In this document: positions 47,001 to 55,090 of the stretch, one piece after another
Numbering within the stretch: position 1 is the first letter of the stretch
Layout: each line of letters starts with the position of its first letter
Source: Fischerella sp. CENA71
GTDB taxonomy: Bacteria > Cyanobacteriota > Cyanobacteriia > Cyanobacteriales > Nostocaceae
Length of the DNA stretch: 64,000 nucleotides
NCBI GenBank assembly: GCA_024239075.1
Contig: JANBVI010000028.1
Location: forward strand, 33,020 to 97,019
Direction of reading: 5' to 3'
Translations under genes and position numbers: made by a program
The notes under the pieces: generated by a model
What the model saw: only the letters and a program-made list of their open reading frames with translations
Told to the model about the DNA's origin: nothing
Database searches by the model: none

Positions 47001-47047
47001 ACTGACTTGAAAGTGGGTGTAAGGGTATAGGGGTGTAGGAGGAGTCC
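47001..47047. repeat. Copy of ACTGACTT/GGGTGTAAGGGTATAGGG repeat
   Basis: Second copy of the dispersed repeat at about 1233-1289, in the same orientation. It lies between rnz and the small ORF at 47053-47232. Confidence 0.55.
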
Positions 47048-47341: not shown

Positions 47342-48544
47342 TCATGAAGAACGGAACAAAACGCGTCCTGGAATTACCTCATCATTAATCTTGGCATACA
47401 CCCGCAGACAGGCGGACACTTCTCCTGGTACACCACCAATCTCTAGTTGTAAATCGTCTTTTGACCAAGTGTAGATATCGGCGTAGGTTCCCCACAGTGG
47501 GCGGATTTGTACCTGATAACCAGCATCGCGGGCTTTTTCCACGACACCATCGAGAGAACGACGGGCTTCTTGTTGGAGTTTTCCCCACCAAGAAAAGCGA
47601 TCGCACGGTGGCAAATATACTAAAGAATGAATCGCCTCATCTAAATCTAATCTAGCCCGGAGTGCGATCGCAGGGTCAGCATTAGTAGTACTAGACACAC
47701 GCTCAAACCGATCTACTAGTGCTGTCACATACTTAGATTTTTCTGAATCTGAACTCAAAGGTCTAACACCAAAGCGGTCTACACTTTTAAAGGCATGGTG
47801 TAAACACGTATCTGTTTCGATAAAATAGAGACAAGCAGATACAATCCCGGCTAACACATCTAATTCCCCGCCTCTTTTTTCTACTTGCAACTGTCGATCA
47901 AAATCAATCTGATCTGATAAAAACAAGCCAGTTGCATAAACACTTCCCTGTAAACCAGAGTAAACAGGTTCACTGCGGCTAAAACCAATCTGTTGCACAG
48001 CAAACTTCTCTTCCAAAGCACCAAACTGACTGACTTCCGCTAAAATGCATTCCCGCCAAGTATGAGCAACTTTTTCCGGGACTCGTAGCAACAAGCGTTG
48101 GATTTCATTCCACAAATCAAGATCATTGTTGCTGTGAAACTGGTACGCACCAACATATTGCAACAATTCTTGATCAGCGAGCAAAGCATCACCAATGTGT
48201 TTCAGTTTCTGTTCTTTGGGAATTTCCAGCTGAATTGGTTCCAAGACATCTTCCCAAGTGGGGGGAGGAGGAGACGCGGGGACACGGGGAGTAGGAGACG
48301 CAGGGAATGCATTCAGAGTATTCTCCGTGTCCTGTTGACTCCGTGTCCCCGTGTCCTTCTCTGTCTGTGGTTGCAAAAGTTGATCTAATTCGCGCACAAC
48401 TTCCTGACAAGCACTACTACCCGGATCTCTTATATCTTCCTTGAGTGCTTCTTGTAATTGAGTCCGCAGTCCATATAAACCTAACCGCAGTACCCAAGCT
48501 AATTGTGAATCCTCAATTTCCAATAACTTGCTGAGGTGCTGCAT
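47342..48544 (-). CDS. Unknown protein, third gene of GTPase/SrfB-like group
   Basis: A 400-residue protein from the ATG at 48544 (MQHLSKLLEIEDSQ); an upstream start at 48577 adds 11 residues. I do not recognise a family. N-terminal helices (about 1-55) are followed by a low-complexity insert (about 60-96, DTGTRSQQDTE...FPASPTPRVPASPPPP) encoded by a dispersed repeat, then a helical and beta-rich body ending IPGRVLFRSS. It has no signal peptide or membrane segment. It follows the SrfB-like gene on the same strand, with a repeat in the gap. By position it could play the part of an accessory factor like SrfA; this is inference. Confidence 0.7.
   Translation of the reverse strand: MQHLSKLLEIEDSQLAWVLRLGLYGLRTQLQEALKEDIRDPGSSACQEVVRELDQLLQPQTEKDTGTRSQQDTENTLNAFPASPTPRVPASPPPPTWEDVLEPIQLEIPKEQKLKHIGDALLADQELLQYVGAYQFHSNNDLDLWNEIQRLLLRVPEKVAHTWRECILAEVSQFGALEEKFAVQQIGFSRSEPVYSGLQGSVYATGLFLSDQIDFDRQLQVEKRGGELDVLAGIVSACLYFIETDTCLHHAFKSVDRFGVRPLSSDSEKSKYVTALVDRFERVSSTTNADPAIALRARLDLDEAIHSLVYLPPCDRFSWWGKLQQEARRSLDGVVEKARDAGYQVQIRPLWGTYADIYTWSKDDLQLEIGGVPGEVSACLRVYAKINDEVIPGRVLFRSS
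48255..48365 (-). repeat. In-frame repeat insertion in unknown gene
   Basis: On the coding strand: GACACGGGGACACGGAGTCA and a GCATTCCCTGCGTCTCC-type part with an inverted CCCCGTGTCC end. It matches the insertion in the rlhA-like gene at 26540-26710 in DNA and encoded peptide (DTGTRSQQ...FPASP), though the host proteins are unrelated. The reading frame is preserved. Confidence 0.78.
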
Positions 48545-48594
48545 GTTCTCTCCATTATTTCTGCAAAACTGACGCAAAATCCCTCTGTTTTCTC

Positions 48595-48755
48595 TTCCTT
48601 GGCGTCCTTCGCGTCCTTTGTGGTTCGTTCACAAATGTCATAATGCAAGTCGCAATGAATTTATGCTTCTCGCCCACTGAATTTATTTAACGAACCACAT
48701 AGACGCGCTAGCGGGAAGCCGCTAGGGTAGGAAACAAAGGACACGAAGGAAGAAG
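48595..48755. repeat. Inverted-arm repeat between SrfB-like and unknown genes
   Basis: TCCTTTGTGGTTCGTT (near 48611-48630) faces AACGAACCACA (near 48689). The right arm is interrupted by a nested TAGACGCGCTAGCGGGAAGC...GGGTAGG unit before ACAAAGGACACGAAGG resumes. The same composite recurs at 52245-52370. Confidence 0.6.
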
Positions 48756-48761
48756 AGTTTT

Positions 48762-51700
48762 TTAATGCAATCCGCAGAACGGATCACGTTCTGTTTCGAC
48801 GTTGTTAGATTGTGCTTGGAGGGAATCTCGATAAACGCATCCCTCTATTTTGAGACATTCGGGATTTGTTGATGTCCAGTAGGGTACTTCAAAGGCGTGG
48901 ATTCGTAAGATACCTTGTCTGTTGAGGGTGACGTAATATTTACAAGGATATTCGGATTTGATTTCTGGTTGGGGAAGTTCGCCAATTAGTTCCCATTTGT
49001 TTGATTCTGGGTTGCGAAATTGGAAGTAAAATGTGTGTTTACCACTGACGGGGAAGGGTGGTAGTTCTGCGATTAAGCCTATTCCTTGGATTTGGGTGTC
49101 GTCTTCGTTGTAACGAAAGGTTTGTACTTCTTGGTTTTGATTGGTGGAAAAGAGTACTGTGTGAGCATCGGTTTTGAAGACGTTGGCTGATTCGGCGACG
49201 TTGACGGCGATATCACAGACGATTTCTCCATAATCAGAAAGAATTGTTTGTGTGGCGATCGCTTTGGCTGCATCGAGACAAGGTATATTTACGGGAATGA
49301 GATAATGGGGTTTTCCTCGTGATAATAATAGATCGATGTCTAGTTTTTGGTTGATTTCAAATTGGACTTGAATGTTATTTTTGAAGTCCTCTTCGTTCAA
49401 CCCCAATTTTTTCATCAGGATGTCGCCGTTGTAGCTACCCCAAAGTTGGAGTTTCATGTTCTCGAAGTCTTGACGTCTGATGTTGTTGGTTAATTGCATC
49501 CCCATCCAACGACTGCGATATTTGGCGATCGCATCTTGGGCTTGAAGCTGATATAATTCTTGTCCAGCGTGAAAGATGGGATCGGGACTACCGCCGATGA
49601 CTTCGCGGACGAAGGAACAGGGGAGAAAGTAAAATAGATTTTTGACATCTATATATAGTTGGTTCGCACCTTTTTTGAGTAAGTCTTTGGCTTGTTGGGG
49701 AGAGAAGCTGAGTTGGCGGAGTTTTTCAGCGAAGCAGGCGCCGGCGGATGTGGCGAGTTTGGTGTATTCTGGTTCAAAGGTAACTCGTTCTTCGTTCCAC
49801 AAGAAGTAATCTGATTTGCTGAAGACTCGGTAGAGTTCGCGTTCGACGATTTCTAAGTTGCAGGTTTTACCGGAAAGAATTAACCAATCGACGGTTTCAG
49901 GGGAGTTGCTGGGATTGACGGATTTGTTTTTGAAGGCGTTTTCGATTAATCCTTGGGCGATACCGACTGCTTCTCGAACTACGGGTGCGACTGCTTTTTC
50001 AAATTGTTCGACGGTGAGGGTAACGTTGAGGCGATCGCTAACGCTTGTAGGTAAAGTAATATCGTTGTGGACTAGCAGTTCTGAGATTTTTTGTCCATCG
50101 AGGATGAATACAGGTGTATCGAATGTTTGACGCTTTTGTCCGAGGGTGAGTTTGGCTGCTTCGGCGTGTTCCCAAAGTGTGTAGAATGTTTGGGCGCGGG
50201 ATGGGGCGTTTTTCCACCGGGTGGGAAGAACTTTTTCGGCGTCGTTTAAAGCTTCTTTGTAAGCTTCGCCTTCGCGCACTTCGTTATCGACGCAAGCTAG
50301 TAGGGAACCTGGTTGAAATTTACCATTTTGCAGAAAGCGATCGCTCAATTCTTCTGGTTGTACTTTTAAAATATCTCTGGGTAAGGTTTCGTCTACAATG
50401 GCAGTGAGTAAACAATCGGCTAATGCTGCTTTCAATAACAAAAATAGCCGCAGAGTAATTAATTCACCACCCAGTTGCAGATGTCCAGAGGAACCAAGTA
50501 ACTTCGGTGTAAGTTTATAGTAGCGTCCACCGTCGCCTCGATCTTCTCCCGGTTCAAAAGGATTAATTTCTTCCAGGGAAAGACGAATCAAGGCTAAATC
50601 GGTAGTTCCACCACCAATATCCAACACCATCACATTTTGCCACCATTTGTCCCCATCCCGACGACAGCGAGTTTTGAAAGATTCGATTCCTAAATTTAAA
50701 TCGCCGCCAAATTCTCGCCAGAGGAAAAATATTGCCACAGAAACAGCTTCATCATAAGCCATTTGCACATCTTCAATATCTAGCTGTTTCACCAACTGTT
50801 CAATTTCGCGACGAACAAAAGGCGAAGCGATAGTCGGGTAAGTTACCACCGTGCGGTAAAATTTCCCTTGGGAACATTTGCCCGAACGCTGGCGATATTT
50901 TTCGGTTAACTCGATTAATTGAGCATACGCTGCTTGCAACAGCTTGTTAACAGGGATGGAATCTTCTTTATCATTGAGAGTAATTTGAAAAGAACGTTCT
51001 TGTCCAAAATAACGTTTGGGTGAATGCAGAAATCTGCTATCAATTCCCTCACCTTGTCTAATCGCATCTAAACGGTGTTGTTTGGCTTGTTCACCCAAAC
51101 TCACTTTGACTTTTAGCGGATCGTTGGTTGGTAAAAACGGTTCTAAACCAATAACTTCCAACTCGCTCGCAATTTCATTCAAACGTCTATCTTTATCCAA
51201 CTCTACTGAGATTAAACTTTGCCATTCTAGGGGCGGCACGCGAAACACTTCATGATAAATTTGATTTAAACGTTTACTAGCAGCCCGACGAAACCAAGAT
51301 AAACGCTTACTCAAAGCAATTTCAATTTGCCGAATTGCTTCTAAAAATTGCTCTCCATTTAAATTGCGTAAATTGACATTACTATCAACCTGAATATTTT
51401 TACTCACTTCAATTAAAAATCTTTGCCATTCCTGCATCCAAGCATCCTGAGTGACACCAGCTATATTATCTACAGGACGTTGAGTTAACCATGTCGATAA
51501 GCGATCGCGCAACCTCGCTTCTTGTTCACTAGGTAAACTATGGGGTGTCACAATCACCTTGGGATCATAAAGCGTCACAGTCGAATTAGAAGTACCAAAA
51601 TCAATCGCAAACCAACCAGGATAAGTAATTTCTGGTTGCTTTTCAACTTGCTTCACTGGTGCTTCAGCAGGTAACTTTACTTCTTCATCCGGTAAAGTTT

Positions 51701-52181
51701 GGGGTGCTGTATTTTTAAAAGAGTTTAAGACTGAATCGGTAAAAGACATGAGTGGATTTTTAATTGAGTAATCTTTGATGGGATAAGTCCAGATATTGCA
51801 CTCAGCAGTAGTTTGTTTGCTAATAGACAAAAGCGGTTCACCCGTTGCGCTTGATTCAAAATACTCGATAATTACTTGCAAATTACAATTAACACCTGTT
51901 GGTAAAGGTTCATTCCAGCGACAATCACTTTGTCTTAATCGCTGGGGAGTATTCAGCTGTAAAAGCTTGTGCGTACCAAAGTTTACACTTTTATAAGCCG
52001 ATTGCATCGCTGTTGCCAAGTCTTCTGGTACACCAGCAACAAATATATTAATGCGGAAAATGTGAGGAAAATGGGGATTAGGAACGGGTTTAATTTCTAT
52101 TGCGGGTAATAGGAGTAAGGATGGGTCGTTGGGATGTGTACGTAATTGATAACGATTAAAAAGTTCTATTTTAATTGGCAT
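48762..52181 (-). CDS. SrfB-like large actin/Hsp70-fold ATPase
   Basis: A 1139-residue cytoplasmic protein with an actin/Hsp70-type ATPase core. Phosphate-1 motif FAIDFGTSNSTVTLY is at about residues 191-205, phosphate-2 motif VMVLDIGGGTTDLAL near 516-530, and an adenosine-like motif LILSGKTCNLE near 769. About 185 residues precede the core, and a large helical insertion separates the first two motifs. The overall length and motifs resemble virulence factor SrfB of enterobacteria. It lies directly after a dynamin-like GTPase gene and before an unknown gene on the same strand, a three-gene layout reminiscent of srfABC. The cellular role is unknown. Confidence 0.8.
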   Translation of the reverse strand: MPIKIELFNRYQLRTHPNDPSLLLLPAIEIKPVPNPHFPHIFRINIFVAGVPEDLATAMQSAYKSVNFGTHKLLQLNTPQRLRQSDCRWNEPLPTGVNCNLQVIIEYFESSATGEPLLSISKQTTAECNIWTYPIKDYSIKNPLMSFTDSVLNSFKNTAPQTLPDEEVKLPAEAPVKQVEKQPEITYPGWFAIDFGTSNSTVTLYDPKVIVTPHSLPSEQEARLRDRLSTWLTQRPVDNIAGVTQDAWMQEWQRFLIEVSKNIQVDSNVNLRNLNGEQFLEAIRQIEIALSKRLSWFRRAASKRLNQIYHEVFRVPPLEWQSLISVELDKDRRLNEIASELEVIGLEPFLPTNDPLKVKVSLGEQAKQHRLDAIRQGEGIDSRFLHSPKRYFGQERSFQITLNDKEDSIPVNKLLQAAYAQLIELTEKYRQRSGKCSQGKFYRTVVTYPTIASPFVRREIEQLVKQLDIEDVQMAYDEAVSVAIFFLWREFGGDLNLGIESFKTRCRRDGDKWWQNVMVLDIGGGTTDLALIRLSLEEINPFEPGEDRGDGGRYYKLTPKLLGSSGHLQLGGELITLRLFLLLKAALADCLLTAIVDETLPRDILKVQPEELSDRFLQNGKFQPGSLLACVDNEVREGEAYKEALNDAEKVLPTRWKNAPSRAQTFYTLWEHAEAAKLTLGQKRQTFDTPVFILDGQKISELLVHNDITLPTSVSDRLNVTLTVEQFEKAVAPVVREAVGIAQGLIENAFKNKSVNPSNSPETVDWLILSGKTCNLEIVERELYRVFSKSDYFLWNEERVTFEPEYTKLATSAGACFAEKLRQLSFSPQQAKDLLKKGANQLYIDVKNLFYFLPCSFVREVIGGSPDPIFHAGQELYQLQAQDAIAKYRSRWMGMQLTNNIRRQDFENMKLQLWGSYNGDILMKKLGLNEEDFKNNIQVQFEINQKLDIDLLLSRGKPHYLIPVNIPCLDAAKAIATQTILSDYGEIVCDIAVNVAESANVFKTDAHTVLFSTNQNQEVQTFRYNEDDTQIQGIGLIAELPPFPVSGKHTFYFQFRNPESNKWELIGELPQPEIKSEYPCKYYVTLNRQGILRIHAFEVPYWTSTNPECLKIEGCVYRDSLQAQSNNVETERDPFCGLH

Positions 52182-52244
52182 TATTTATAGATTCCCTTAA
52201 CATTAATCATAAGTTGTGAAATTTACGCAGCACACATAGAGATT

Positions 52245-52370
52245 TTTTTTACGAACCACATAGACGCGCTAGCGTCTTCCCGCTAGGGTAGGACACAAAG
52301 TACGCGAAGAAATAAATCTTCTTCCTTTGTGTCCTTTGTGTCCTTTGTGGTTCGTTTCTTCCCCATAATT
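52245..52370. repeat. Inverted-arm repeat between GTPase and SrfB-like genes
   Basis: Left arm ACGAACCACA, then nested TAGACGCGCTAGCGTCTTCC...GGGTAGG, then ACACAAAG; right arm CTTCCTTTGTGTCCTTTGTG followed by GTTCGTT. Same composite as 48595-48755, with the nested unit at the same place. The arms can fold into a long hairpin in the polycistronic RNA. Confidence 0.65.
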
Positions 52371-52377
52371 CTAAAGG

Positions 52378-54945
52378 TTACAATTCACTTGAATGAGAAA
52401 TCATCGCCACTTGGGAAAGGGTTTCTAGCCAAGGTGGAACAGATTTAGATTTATCTTTGTCTGCGTCGGCGATATATCTGAGTAATGGTTCGTGTTTGGA
52501 TTTTAGTAGTTCTTGTAGACTATCGACTATTTCTTTTAAGGCTCTAGAAAAAGAAGATTTCACCTGTTTGGTTAATTGACTGACGTATTGAACTAGATGT
52601 AGACCAGCACTGGCGGTGATTTCATCTCGCAGTCGCAAAACGGCTATTTGATGATTAAATGGTCTGGGAGGGGTGGGAAATTGTTTATCGGGACTCCAGT
52701 CTAAGATTTGTCCGTTGGGATGTTTGTCATCTTGACGCGCTAGGGGAAATAAAGCGTCGGCGTTGATGGCATGATTATTATTAGCTAATCCACTGTGATC
52801 GATAATTAATCTTTGCCATTTGTTGGCTGGATCAACTGCGCGTAAGAAGTTACGAAATAGGCGGAGTTGATTTTTTCCGAAATTGTCTTGAATGTACCTT
52901 TCAATATCTGGTGAGAGAACAGAGTTAACTGTGTTACGTTCGTCTGCAACTTCGATTGATAGCTTTTTGAAAAAATCAATTACTGCTTCTGTGGTGCGTT
53001 CATGAGCAAAAGTTTGCATTTCTTGGATGGTTTGGACAAATGCAGAATAGAAATCATCACTTTTGGTAGGGATGGTGTCTTCTACTTCTTCGTCACCAAA
53101 AAAACTGTCGGTTTTGGTGAGAGAAATCGTGCCATTTTTGGTTCGATCAAATAGTAGTGTCCATTCACTCCATTCAAAGAATATTTTATTAGTTAGTTCG
53201 TCTTTAACGACATCACTCACGGCGACGCCATCGCGGTTTTTTAATATTGGTTGTTTTTCGAGTTCTTCTTGAAATTGTCTGTAAATAGTGACTAAGTTTT
53301 CTATTCCTTGGCGCAGTTCGATAAATTTCGGGTTTTCTTCGACGGGGATGTAAGCGGGTACTTGTTCGAGGAGAGTTTTTAAGTTATCTTGCTCTTTTTG
53401 CAAAGCTTTGACGGTTCTTTGGGTATCTTCTACAAGTTGTTTTAAACCGTTTTGGGCGACGTGGTCTTTGAGTAATGCGCGTAGTCTGCTGATTCCTCCG
53501 TCTTCTGCAAAGTCACTAAGTTGTTTTTGCAGGGTACTTGATGGTGGTAGCATTTTACTGAGTTGTTGCCATTTTTCCCGTAGTTCAACTTCGGAGAGTT
53601 TGTTGGGAATGTCTAATTCTGGCAGAAATTCTAGGGAGGAAACTTGGATGAGAGAAGAAAGTTCTGCAAGTTTGGCTAAACCGTGGAGTTGGGAGAGTAA
53701 AACTATATTTTTTTTCTCTGTGGTTAAGTTGCTGGCACTGGCAATGGTAAGTTGAAGAATGCCCAGGTTTTCTAATATATTGGCTTCGGAAAGTAATGGT
53801 TCGTCTACGAGTTCATCAAGGGCGCGTTCGTCACTCTGGGTAAGGGGAAGTTGATTGAAGCGTCCGACACCAACGATAATTCTATCTCTTAAGTCGTGTC
53901 CTTTGTCGCGCTCTAACATTGTACGAATTTTTGAGGCGATCGCACCACCTGGATATCTGCCGTTGAGTAGCAATAGCAGAGTTTGCACGTCTCTGAGTTC
54001 GCGCAGTGACAAAAAGGTATCTCGCACCCCGGAATCTGCTGAACCTAAACCGGGAAAGTCTAACAAAACAAATTCATTGGTTCCTTGGAGTGCAGATAAA
54101 TCCCAGATTTCTTTGGATACTTCAACGGTGACATCGATGCGGCGAATCAAAGAAAAGCTTCTCTGTAAATCTACGGCTGATGGTTGAGCAAAATTTGTCC
54201 ACGGTTGCGGAGGTGGTGGCAGTTGATCAAAGCTGAGTTCTAAGATATTCATTGGTGGTTCAGATAGTCTCAGCCCTTTTTTGGCGGTATTATGATCTAT
54301 TTGGTAGCTTTTACCGCCAATATGTTTACCGTAAGTATTATAGGTACGCATGTATACTACTATTTCTCGGAGTAGCGATCGCAACTCTAAACTTTGCGTC
54401 TGATTCCAAGCTTGTTCGCACCATCTCAAGATTCCATTGCTATCAACAATCGTTGTCGGGTGCAGGTTTTTGAGAGTAGTCAGCAATTCCACAGATATTT
54501 CTGATGCTTTCGCTCGTGTTTCCAATTCCTGGAGCATAAACCGCAGACACTCTTTCACACCCTCATCGGAGAGATACTGAACGGTGTATTTACCAACTTG
54601 GGTAGTTTGTAAATCTGGTTGTTGGCGCAAATGAATGGCGGTGACGTTTCCTGTAGTGGGGGTTTCACTTACAGGTAAGGCATCTGCGTAGCCAATAAGA
54701 CTACCAATTAATAAAGTTTTGCCACTACTGAACTCGCCCATAATGCCAATTTTCACAGGCGAAGAGGCAATTTCTACAACTCTTTGGGCAGATTCTTTTA
54801 AATTTTGAATGTTTTCATGGATACTTTGAGGAAACCAGCTTTCCTGGGGAGGCGGGTTTTGTGAAACTAACTCCAGGCTTTGGAGAACAGATTCCCCATA
54901 TTCTTTATAACGGCTCAGTTGTGCGATCGCCATGTCACTTTTCAT
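52378..54945 (-). CDS. Dynamin-like large GTPase
   Basis: An 855-residue protein of the dynamin-like or SrfC-like GTPase type. The P-loop GEFSSGKTLLIGSL begins at residue 70, followed by a switch-I Thr in ETPTTGNVT and G3 DFPGLGSAD near 295. The G4 position reads VGVGRFNQLP near 358, without a standard N/TKxD. Long helices follow (KALQKEQDNLKTLLEQVP and later), as in a dynamin stalk. No transmembrane segment is visible. GGAG sits five bases before the ATG. It is the first gene of the same-strand group with the SrfB-like ATPase and an unknown protein, suggesting a membrane-remodelling or conflict-type machine; this is inference. Confidence 0.85.
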   Translation of the reverse strand: MKSDMAIAQLSRYKEYGESVLQSLELVSQNPPPQESWFPQSIHENIQNLKESAQRVVEIASSPVKIGIMGEFSSGKTLLIGSLIGYADALPVSETPTTGNVTAIHLRQQPDLQTTQVGKYTVQYLSDEGVKECLRFMLQELETRAKASEISVELLTTLKNLHPTTIVDSNGILRWCEQAWNQTQSLELRSLLREIVVYMRTYNTYGKHIGGKSYQIDHNTAKKGLRLSEPPMNILELSFDQLPPPPQPWTNFAQPSAVDLQRSFSLIRRIDVTVEVSKEIWDLSALQGTNEFVLLDFPGLGSADSGVRDTFLSLRELRDVQTLLLLLNGRYPGGAIASKIRTMLERDKGHDLRDRIIVGVGRFNQLPLTQSDERALDELVDEPLLSEANILENLGILQLTIASASNLTTEKKNIVLLSQLHGLAKLAELSSLIQVSSLEFLPELDIPNKLSEVELREKWQQLSKMLPPSSTLQKQLSDFAEDGGISRLRALLKDHVAQNGLKQLVEDTQRTVKALQKEQDNLKTLLEQVPAYIPVEENPKFIELRQGIENLVTIYRQFQEELEKQPILKNRDGVAVSDVVKDELTNKIFFEWSEWTLLFDRTKNGTISLTKTDSFFGDEEVEDTIPTKSDDFYSAFVQTIQEMQTFAHERTTEAVIDFFKKLSIEVADERNTVNSVLSPDIERYIQDNFGKNQLRLFRNFLRAVDPANKWQRLIIDHSGLANNNHAINADALFPLARQDDKHPNGQILDWSPDKQFPTPPRPFNHQIAVLRLRDEITASAGLHLVQYVSQLTKQVKSSFSRALKEIVDSLQELLKSKHEPLLRYIADADKDKSKSVPPWLETLSQVAMISHSSEL

Positions 54946-54959
54946 ACTTACTCCGGTAA

Positions 54960-55090
54960 ATTAGGGGATCGGGGAAAGGGAATCGGGGAAAGGGGATCAG
55001 GGATAAGAGTGTAAGACAAAGAATTGTCAATTGATGTTATCTATCTACACTCGTACATCCCTACACCCCTACACCCTTACACCCTTACAC
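54960..55090. repeat. STRR tracts upstream of GTPase gene
   Basis: CGGGGAAAGG-type units at 54962-55008 and CCCTACACCCTTACA-type units at 55058-55090. The second resembles the reverse complement of the 1233-1289 repeat. The remaining bases to the leuA terminator (55091-55425) hold nothing I recognise. Confidence 0.6.

Follow-up and report, generated by a model that had tools for sequence, protein, structure and literature searches.

A three-gene locus in Fischerella

The window analysed here is a stretch of 64,000 nucleotides of Fischerella sp. CENA71 (Nostocaceae; contig JANBVI010000028.1, positions 33,020 to 97,019), whose genome comprises 7.5 Mb in 95 contigs. It carries three consecutive minus-strand genes encoding a dynamin-type GTPase, a large Hsp70-type ATPase and a third protein, here termed C3 (Table 1). 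Each has a single match in its own genome in three separate searches. An earlier note on this DNA had described the genes with products of 855, 1139 and 400 amino acids and the motifs GEFSSGKT, DFGTSNS and DIGGGTTD, and all of these were recovered. The length of C3 is 400 residues from the conserved ATG and 411 from a TTG. The neighbors are ordinary, with LeuA upstream and a metallo-beta-lactamase-fold, tRNase Z-like gene downstream. The intergenic gaps measure 196 and 184 bp (the latter 217 bp if C3 starts at the ATG), hence the window by itself is no proof of an operon. Both gaps contain a 74-nt repeat (48681-48754 and 52242-52315, 84% identical) adjoined by a 37-nt repeat, and both repeats are interspersed palindrome-like elements. 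A 25-nt G-rich inverted repeat (47015-47039 and 55060-55084, 96% complementary) brackets the block, with its upstream arm within a GTGTAAGGG-type tandem stretch.

The three genes form a unit

Comparison across genomes makes a three-part unit well supported. Among 60 genomes, each searched with the ATPase, C3 and the GTPase (the last at E<=1e-20), every protein was found in 35, and these were the identical 35 genomes every time. All 60 are thus concordant, with 35 holding all three genes and 25 holding none. As 36 of the 60 come from one family, the genomes are related and the cases are not independent. More telling are the joint absence of all three genes from G015, G025 and G026 within the window's family, the fragmentation of every one of them in G020, and the complete set in G037 and G053 outside the family. 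By coordinates, 29 of the 35 carriers have the three genes side by side in the usual order. C3 lies at another place in G016, G020 and G023, the GTPase does so in G012, and adjacency is undecidable at contig ends in G010 and G022.

A scan of public genomes yielded at least 48 loci, and those listed comprise 45 from cyanobacteria and one each from Myxococcota, Streptomyces and Nocardia. Using tblastn, the ATPase was recovered at all 48 listed loci, the GTPase at 47 and C3 at 42, on a single strand and in constant order. At two of the six listed loci without C3 (L051, L089), the sequence stops soon after or inside the ATPase. Four genomes whose locus has no adjacent C3 (L056, L071, L085, L048) each hold one C3 elsewhere, which in Nostoc KVJ20 adjoins the first copy of that genome. 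The Myxococcota GTPase was located beside an ATPase start at the edge of a different contig, and the two contigs probably adjoin each other. The genes overlap or almost touch in Streptomyces, Nocardia and the cyanobacterial locus L154. The neighbor survey thus did not refute the dedicated three-part system suggested in the earlier note. That three unrelated genes are neighbors by chance could be argued from the repeat-containing gaps of 184 and 196 bp in the window. Yet the trio stays together while neighbor clusters vary, with the commonest open reading frame cluster at 15 of the 48 listed loci upstream and 6 downstream. Chance adjacency is refuted in our view by the concordant co-occurrence, and we give it a negligible probability.

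Some loci carry inserted genes. An open reading frame of 231-286 amino acids lies between GTPase and ATPase at the Nostoc loci L071, L072, L074, L075, L076, L079 and L093, some of which contain a second one of 80-87 amino acids. To us, the inserted frame looks like a nuclease-type transposase. In G037, an Nramp-type transporter gene (L155:15596-16933) lies between ATPase and C3.

Properties of the three proteins

That the large ATPase is of Hsp70 nature is well supported by its conserved residues and its predicted fold. The nucleotide-binding domain, of actin/Hsp70-type fold, contains DFGTSNST (194-201), K389, E478, DIGGGTTD (521-528) and LGG (570-572). Residues D194, G196, T197, K389, E478, D521, G523-G525, D528 and G571-G572 are invariant in all 49 aligned ATPases. 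We take these motifs to be the phosphate-1, phosphate-2, catalytic Lys/Glu and LGG positions known from DnaK. The predicted model aligns over residues 188-1125 with DnaK 2-505 and includes the linker and a probable substrate-binding beta domain. With merely 14 residues following this domain, the helical lid of Hsp70 is absent. Further differences from DnaK are the low identity in structural alignments (11-20%), the tie to a GTPase and an extra N-terminal domain of 180 residues in most members. The latter is absent from 8 of the 49 aligned ATPases (a ninth, L091, is truncated by a contig end), and in L154 it is encoded separately by a gene overlapping both neighbors (L154:5278-5769).

The GTPase has a dynamin-type G domain. 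Dynamin_N (PF00350) matches the window protein with 38.9 bits (cut-off 27) as well as all 12 aligned GTPases, and lies above the cut-off in all eight scanned singly. G1 to G3 are conserved in the alignment, with G70, S73, G75 and K76 kept in 32 of 33 sequences and the 33rd gapped there. The usual G4 motif, T/NKxD, is replaced. G-R-F stands at the expected position, with R362 and F363 in 32 sequences including that of the window (the 33rd is gapped), in agreement with the earlier note, which had called G4 non-standard. The best 19-residue Kyte-Doolittle windows reach at most 1.41 in the 12 GTPases scanned, so no strongly hydrophobic segment and no membrane anchor are in sight. Of the membrane-remodelling GTPase type proposed in the earlier note, the dynamin affiliation therefore stands and remodelling is unproven. 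Open frames of the GTPase do not exceed 930 residues among the family matches listed, so the core copies among them carry no large fusion. Bacterial dynamin-like proteins such as LeoA, BDLP, SynDLP and DynA likewise have Dynamin_N and G1 to G3; the trio GTPase differs by RF in place of G4, the lack of a hydrophobic segment and a constant Hsp70 partner. The best sequence match in PDB is 5owv_C (E 0.00026), deposited as a GTP-binding protein and presumably the Campylobacter dynamin-like protein. Cyanobacterial dynamin-like proteins are treated in PMC5827413, where the accessible portion does not name the trio GTPase family.

Such matches raise the question of whether chaperone genes have been added here to a dynamin-type phage defense pair akin to LeoABC (Eleos). 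Ten of 12 GTPases are hit by the LeoA profile PDLC03839 (best 6.6e-7), and the match to 5owv_C points the same way. However, the LeoA match in the window is limited to 58 residues around the P-loop, and the LeoBC match was confined to a single GTPase (E 0.06), with flanks not searched for LeoBC. We consider this explanation very improbable.

C3 has no family match above cut-off in Pfam, NCBIfam or PADLOC, in line with the earlier note, which had seen no known domain. The structure prediction that the note had proposed gave an AlphaFold2 model with a pLDDT (predicted local distance difference test) of 88.6, in which the C-terminal domain aligns with the GrpE beta domain over 56 residues. The likeness is confined to this predicted domain, the N-terminal half being unlike GrpE.

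Table 1. Genes and protein features of the trio in the window.
Feature	Coordinates	Strand	Basis
GTPase, dynamin family, 855 aa, ATG start, first gene of the unit	52378..54945	minus	Pfam Dynamin_N and open reading frame call
P-loop (G1) GEFSSGKT, GTPase residues 70-77	54715..54738	minus	alignment
R362-F363 at the standard G4 position of the GTPase	53857..53862	minus	alignment
ATPase, Hsp70 fold, SrfB-like, 1139 aa, ATG start, second gene	48762..52181	minus	
N-terminal domain of the ATPase, residues ~1-180, mainly strands	51642..52181	minus	alignment
Nucleotide-binding domain of the ATPase, residues ~187-830	49692..51623	minus	alignment to Hsp70 nucleotide-binding domains
DnaK-type linker and substrate-binding beta domain region of the ATPase, residues ~840-1125	48807..49664	minus	model alignment
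C3 open reading frame, 411 aa from TTG, third gene	47342..48577	minus	
C3 from the conserved ATG at 48544, 400 aa	47345..48544	minus	AlphaFold2 model, pLDDT 88.6
C-terminal beta domain of C3, residues 344-400, GrpE-beta-domain-like (predicted)	47345..47515	minus	predicted model

Relationship to SrfABC

The earlier note had likened the trio to srfABC. SrfA, SrfB and SrfC form one complex and have 464, 1006 and 893 amino acids as computed from gene lengths, according to the available part of PMC6950479. They are thus also three proteins of sizes similar to those of the trio. The trio could be a divergent operon of this type, with the GTPase as SrfC, the ATPase as SrfB, C3 as SrfA and a shared native role. 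The SrfB model (PF07520) is touched by all 11 members of the ATPase set A2 (best 1.2e-6), and its Pfam cut-off is passed in two of four related genomes searched. The SrfC-type model PF10139 (Virul_Fac) is touched at the P-loop by two GTPases (14.8 and 14.9 bits). Against this, the window ATPase scores 22.4 bits on the SrfB model (cut-off 27.1) over residues 469-537, a stretch of 69 residues spanning the phosphate-2 motif, and the SrfB matches cover about 70-110 model positions, save one weak match of 25. The highest GTPase score on PF10139 is far below the cut-off of 28.1, and neither the window's own genome nor the control genomes gave a match. The gene order is apparently reversed, if the operon name reflects order. 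Also unlike SrfABC, no flagellar or type VI genes occur among the ten window neighbors scanned; according to the portion of PMC3608642 available, host-associated Deltaproteobacteria have srfB and srfC close to genes for type VI control. The profile searches suggested in the earlier note thus succeeded for dynamin, failed for PF10139 and were divided for SrfB, and the SrfABC label as written is not supported. We regard a divergent srfABC operon as rather unlikely. As a matter of ancestry, it is compatible with both the switch and the housekeeping functions considered below and does not exclude either.

Immune-type links in other copies

Several copies outside the Nostocaceae core are linked to parts typical of immunity. 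In the second copy of G008 (L148), the GTPase is fused to a TIR domain (71.3 bits), and ATPase and C3 come next. The PADLOC models PDC-S66, SAVED_TIR and ThsB match within the first 120 residues of this fusion. It is preceded by a same-strand gene of 183 amino acids (L148:11473-12024) with no Pfam or PADLOC match. The second copy of Nostoc KVJ20 (L085/L150) lies inside a same-strand array encoding EAD1-trypsin, EAD1-VMAP-M1-iSTAND, a MoxR-type AAA protein, vWA, an extended GTPase and the ATPase, with gene overlaps running from iSTAND through the GTPase. This GTPase (L150:8301-11606) is extended by 245 N-terminal residues, which have no Pfam match of their own and, except at the junction, no similarity to the TIR portion in L148. 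The L148 and L150 ATPases are sisters (support 100/100) and group with Nostoc-/Anabaena-type copies (99/97), apart from the window's group. A vWA gene abuts the GTPase in L154, where a gene for an XendoU-type endoribonuclease that also matches lamin-tail weakly (L154:10472-11833) lies on the opposite strand downstream of C3. In Nocardia (L094), genes for HSP70 (23.3 bits, cut-off 20.6), DO-GTPase2 (29.1 bits, cut-off 27) and GAP1-N2 (22.7 bits, just below the cut-off of 24) come after the trio, all on its strand.

In the portion of PMC7159879 available, such parts are assigned to conflict systems, many of which show enrichment among multicellular prokaryotes. The MoxR-vWA/iSTAND and DO-GTPase/GAP1 systems described in that portion resemble the trio in combining NTPase and chaperone logic, and HSP70 and GrpE occur in some of the DO-GTPase systems. 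Nostoc KVJ20 and Nocardia have parts of these systems next to their trio genes, whereas the GTPase, Hsp70 and third component of the systems themselves are all distinct from those of the trio. The words SrfB and dynamin were not found in the main text of this source. Overall, the immune-type links lend support to defense, one of several roles the earlier note had guessed.

Distribution

Of 218 Nostocaceae genomes, 212 contain the GTPase; the figure is 203 of 207 for those of good quality and 53 of 56 at the level of genera. Most genomes have one match each, and 12 of the 218 have two, some of which are pieces of a single gene. Two of the six genomes in which it was not found are less than 90% complete. 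The ATPase profile matched 32 of 292 genomes of a phylum sample, all from the window's family, and two (G037 and G053) of the 24 genomes from other families within the 60-genome set. A true relative exists in 2 of 396 sampled Actinomycetota, a count that excludes one motif-only match and includes the genome of L092 itself. The window ATPase had no match among plasmid records, nor is a relative encoded on any viral contig. The carriers named among the loci listed presumably all belong to filamentous, mycelial or otherwise multicellular groups. This pattern is confounded by shared ancestry.

A candidate chaperone-GTPase switch

Our favored explanation, which is tentative and close to an even call, is that the three genes encode one machine, inherited and lost together, and that this machine is a chaperone-GTPase threshold switch wired to immunity in some copies. 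The Hsp70 part would bind and remodel the GTPase or a segment exposed by it, and C3 would control the Hsp70 cycle, perhaps by promoting nucleotide exchange in the manner of GrpE. Two NTPase clocks might thereby combine into a threshold switch responding to disturbances such as infection or cell damage and relaying a signal. We infer the switch and its use in conflict from the fusions and neighbors of other copies. Some copies would be wired to TIR through GTPase fusion, others to EAD1, iSTAND, MoxR and vWA, or to DO-GTPase2 and GAP1-N2. Nearly all Nostocaceae genomes, the window's among them, would hold one core copy that lacks an attached effector and works on a partner elsewhere in the cell.

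Several observations weigh against such a switch. No GrpE profile matches C3 at E<=1, and the hhalign score of C3 against GrpE, for which just 1 to 4 columns were aligned, was reached by 81 of 150 column shuffles in global and 97 of 150 in local mode. PADLOC matches of core GTPases to LeoA are short. No immune-type gene was found among the ten window neighbors scanned, MoxR-vWA and DO-GTPase-GAP1 genes included, although MoxR and vWA are present in KVJ20. Of 11 non-core copies, 4 (L148, L150, L154, L094) have immune-type links. L058, L092, L149, L155 and L091 show none among one to three flanking genes profiled each. The flank scans omit L059, L082 and all core copies but that of the window, so 4 of 11 should not be read as an unbiased frequency. 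Near-universal presence in a family is also unusual for a defense system.

The latter observation favors housekeeping of the filament. The GTPase would then act at septa or internal membranes, Hsp70 and C3 would assemble and disassemble it, and the immune-linked copies would be later borrowings. Consistent with this are the mostly single match per genome, the grouping of cyanobacterial ATPases into one clade (100/99, with no comparison with the species tree) and the presumed multicellular growth of carriers among the at least 48 loci, which ancestry confounds. However, the GTPase lacks a strongly hydrophobic segment, the trio has no constant neighbor cluster and four other copies have immune-type links. 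Moreover, the breakage in G020 and the six family members without the GTPase indicate that the trio is not essential to every member. We consider housekeeping possible but lean away from it. For the near-universal core copy, surveillance and filament-specific housekeeping are close together, and either may apply.

Beyond our favored chaperone-GTPase switch lies a more ambitious reading, which we hold to be doubtful. The trio would represent a new class of switch driven by nucleoside triphosphates in immunity and cell fate, composed of an Hsp70, C3 as an exchange factor that is GrpE-like through convergence or deep ancestry, and a dynamin-type GTPase as client. This core would gain TIR or dock to iSTAND-MoxR-vWA or DO-GTPase-GAP1 modules, with one copy fixed as a surveillance device in nearly all Nostocaceae.

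Our literature search, with subscription journals mostly outside its scope, found no paper on this combination of Hsp70, dynamin-type GTPase and C3, which agrees with the earlier note in calling it poorly described. A three-gene system whose GTPase is carried by nearly all sampled genomes of a large filamentous family has no described function in the literature found. If an Hsp70 is indeed coupled to such a dynamin-type GTPase together with a dedicated third protein, this would be a new mode of GTPase control. The TIR fusion and the conflict-system neighbors make an immune role directly testable.

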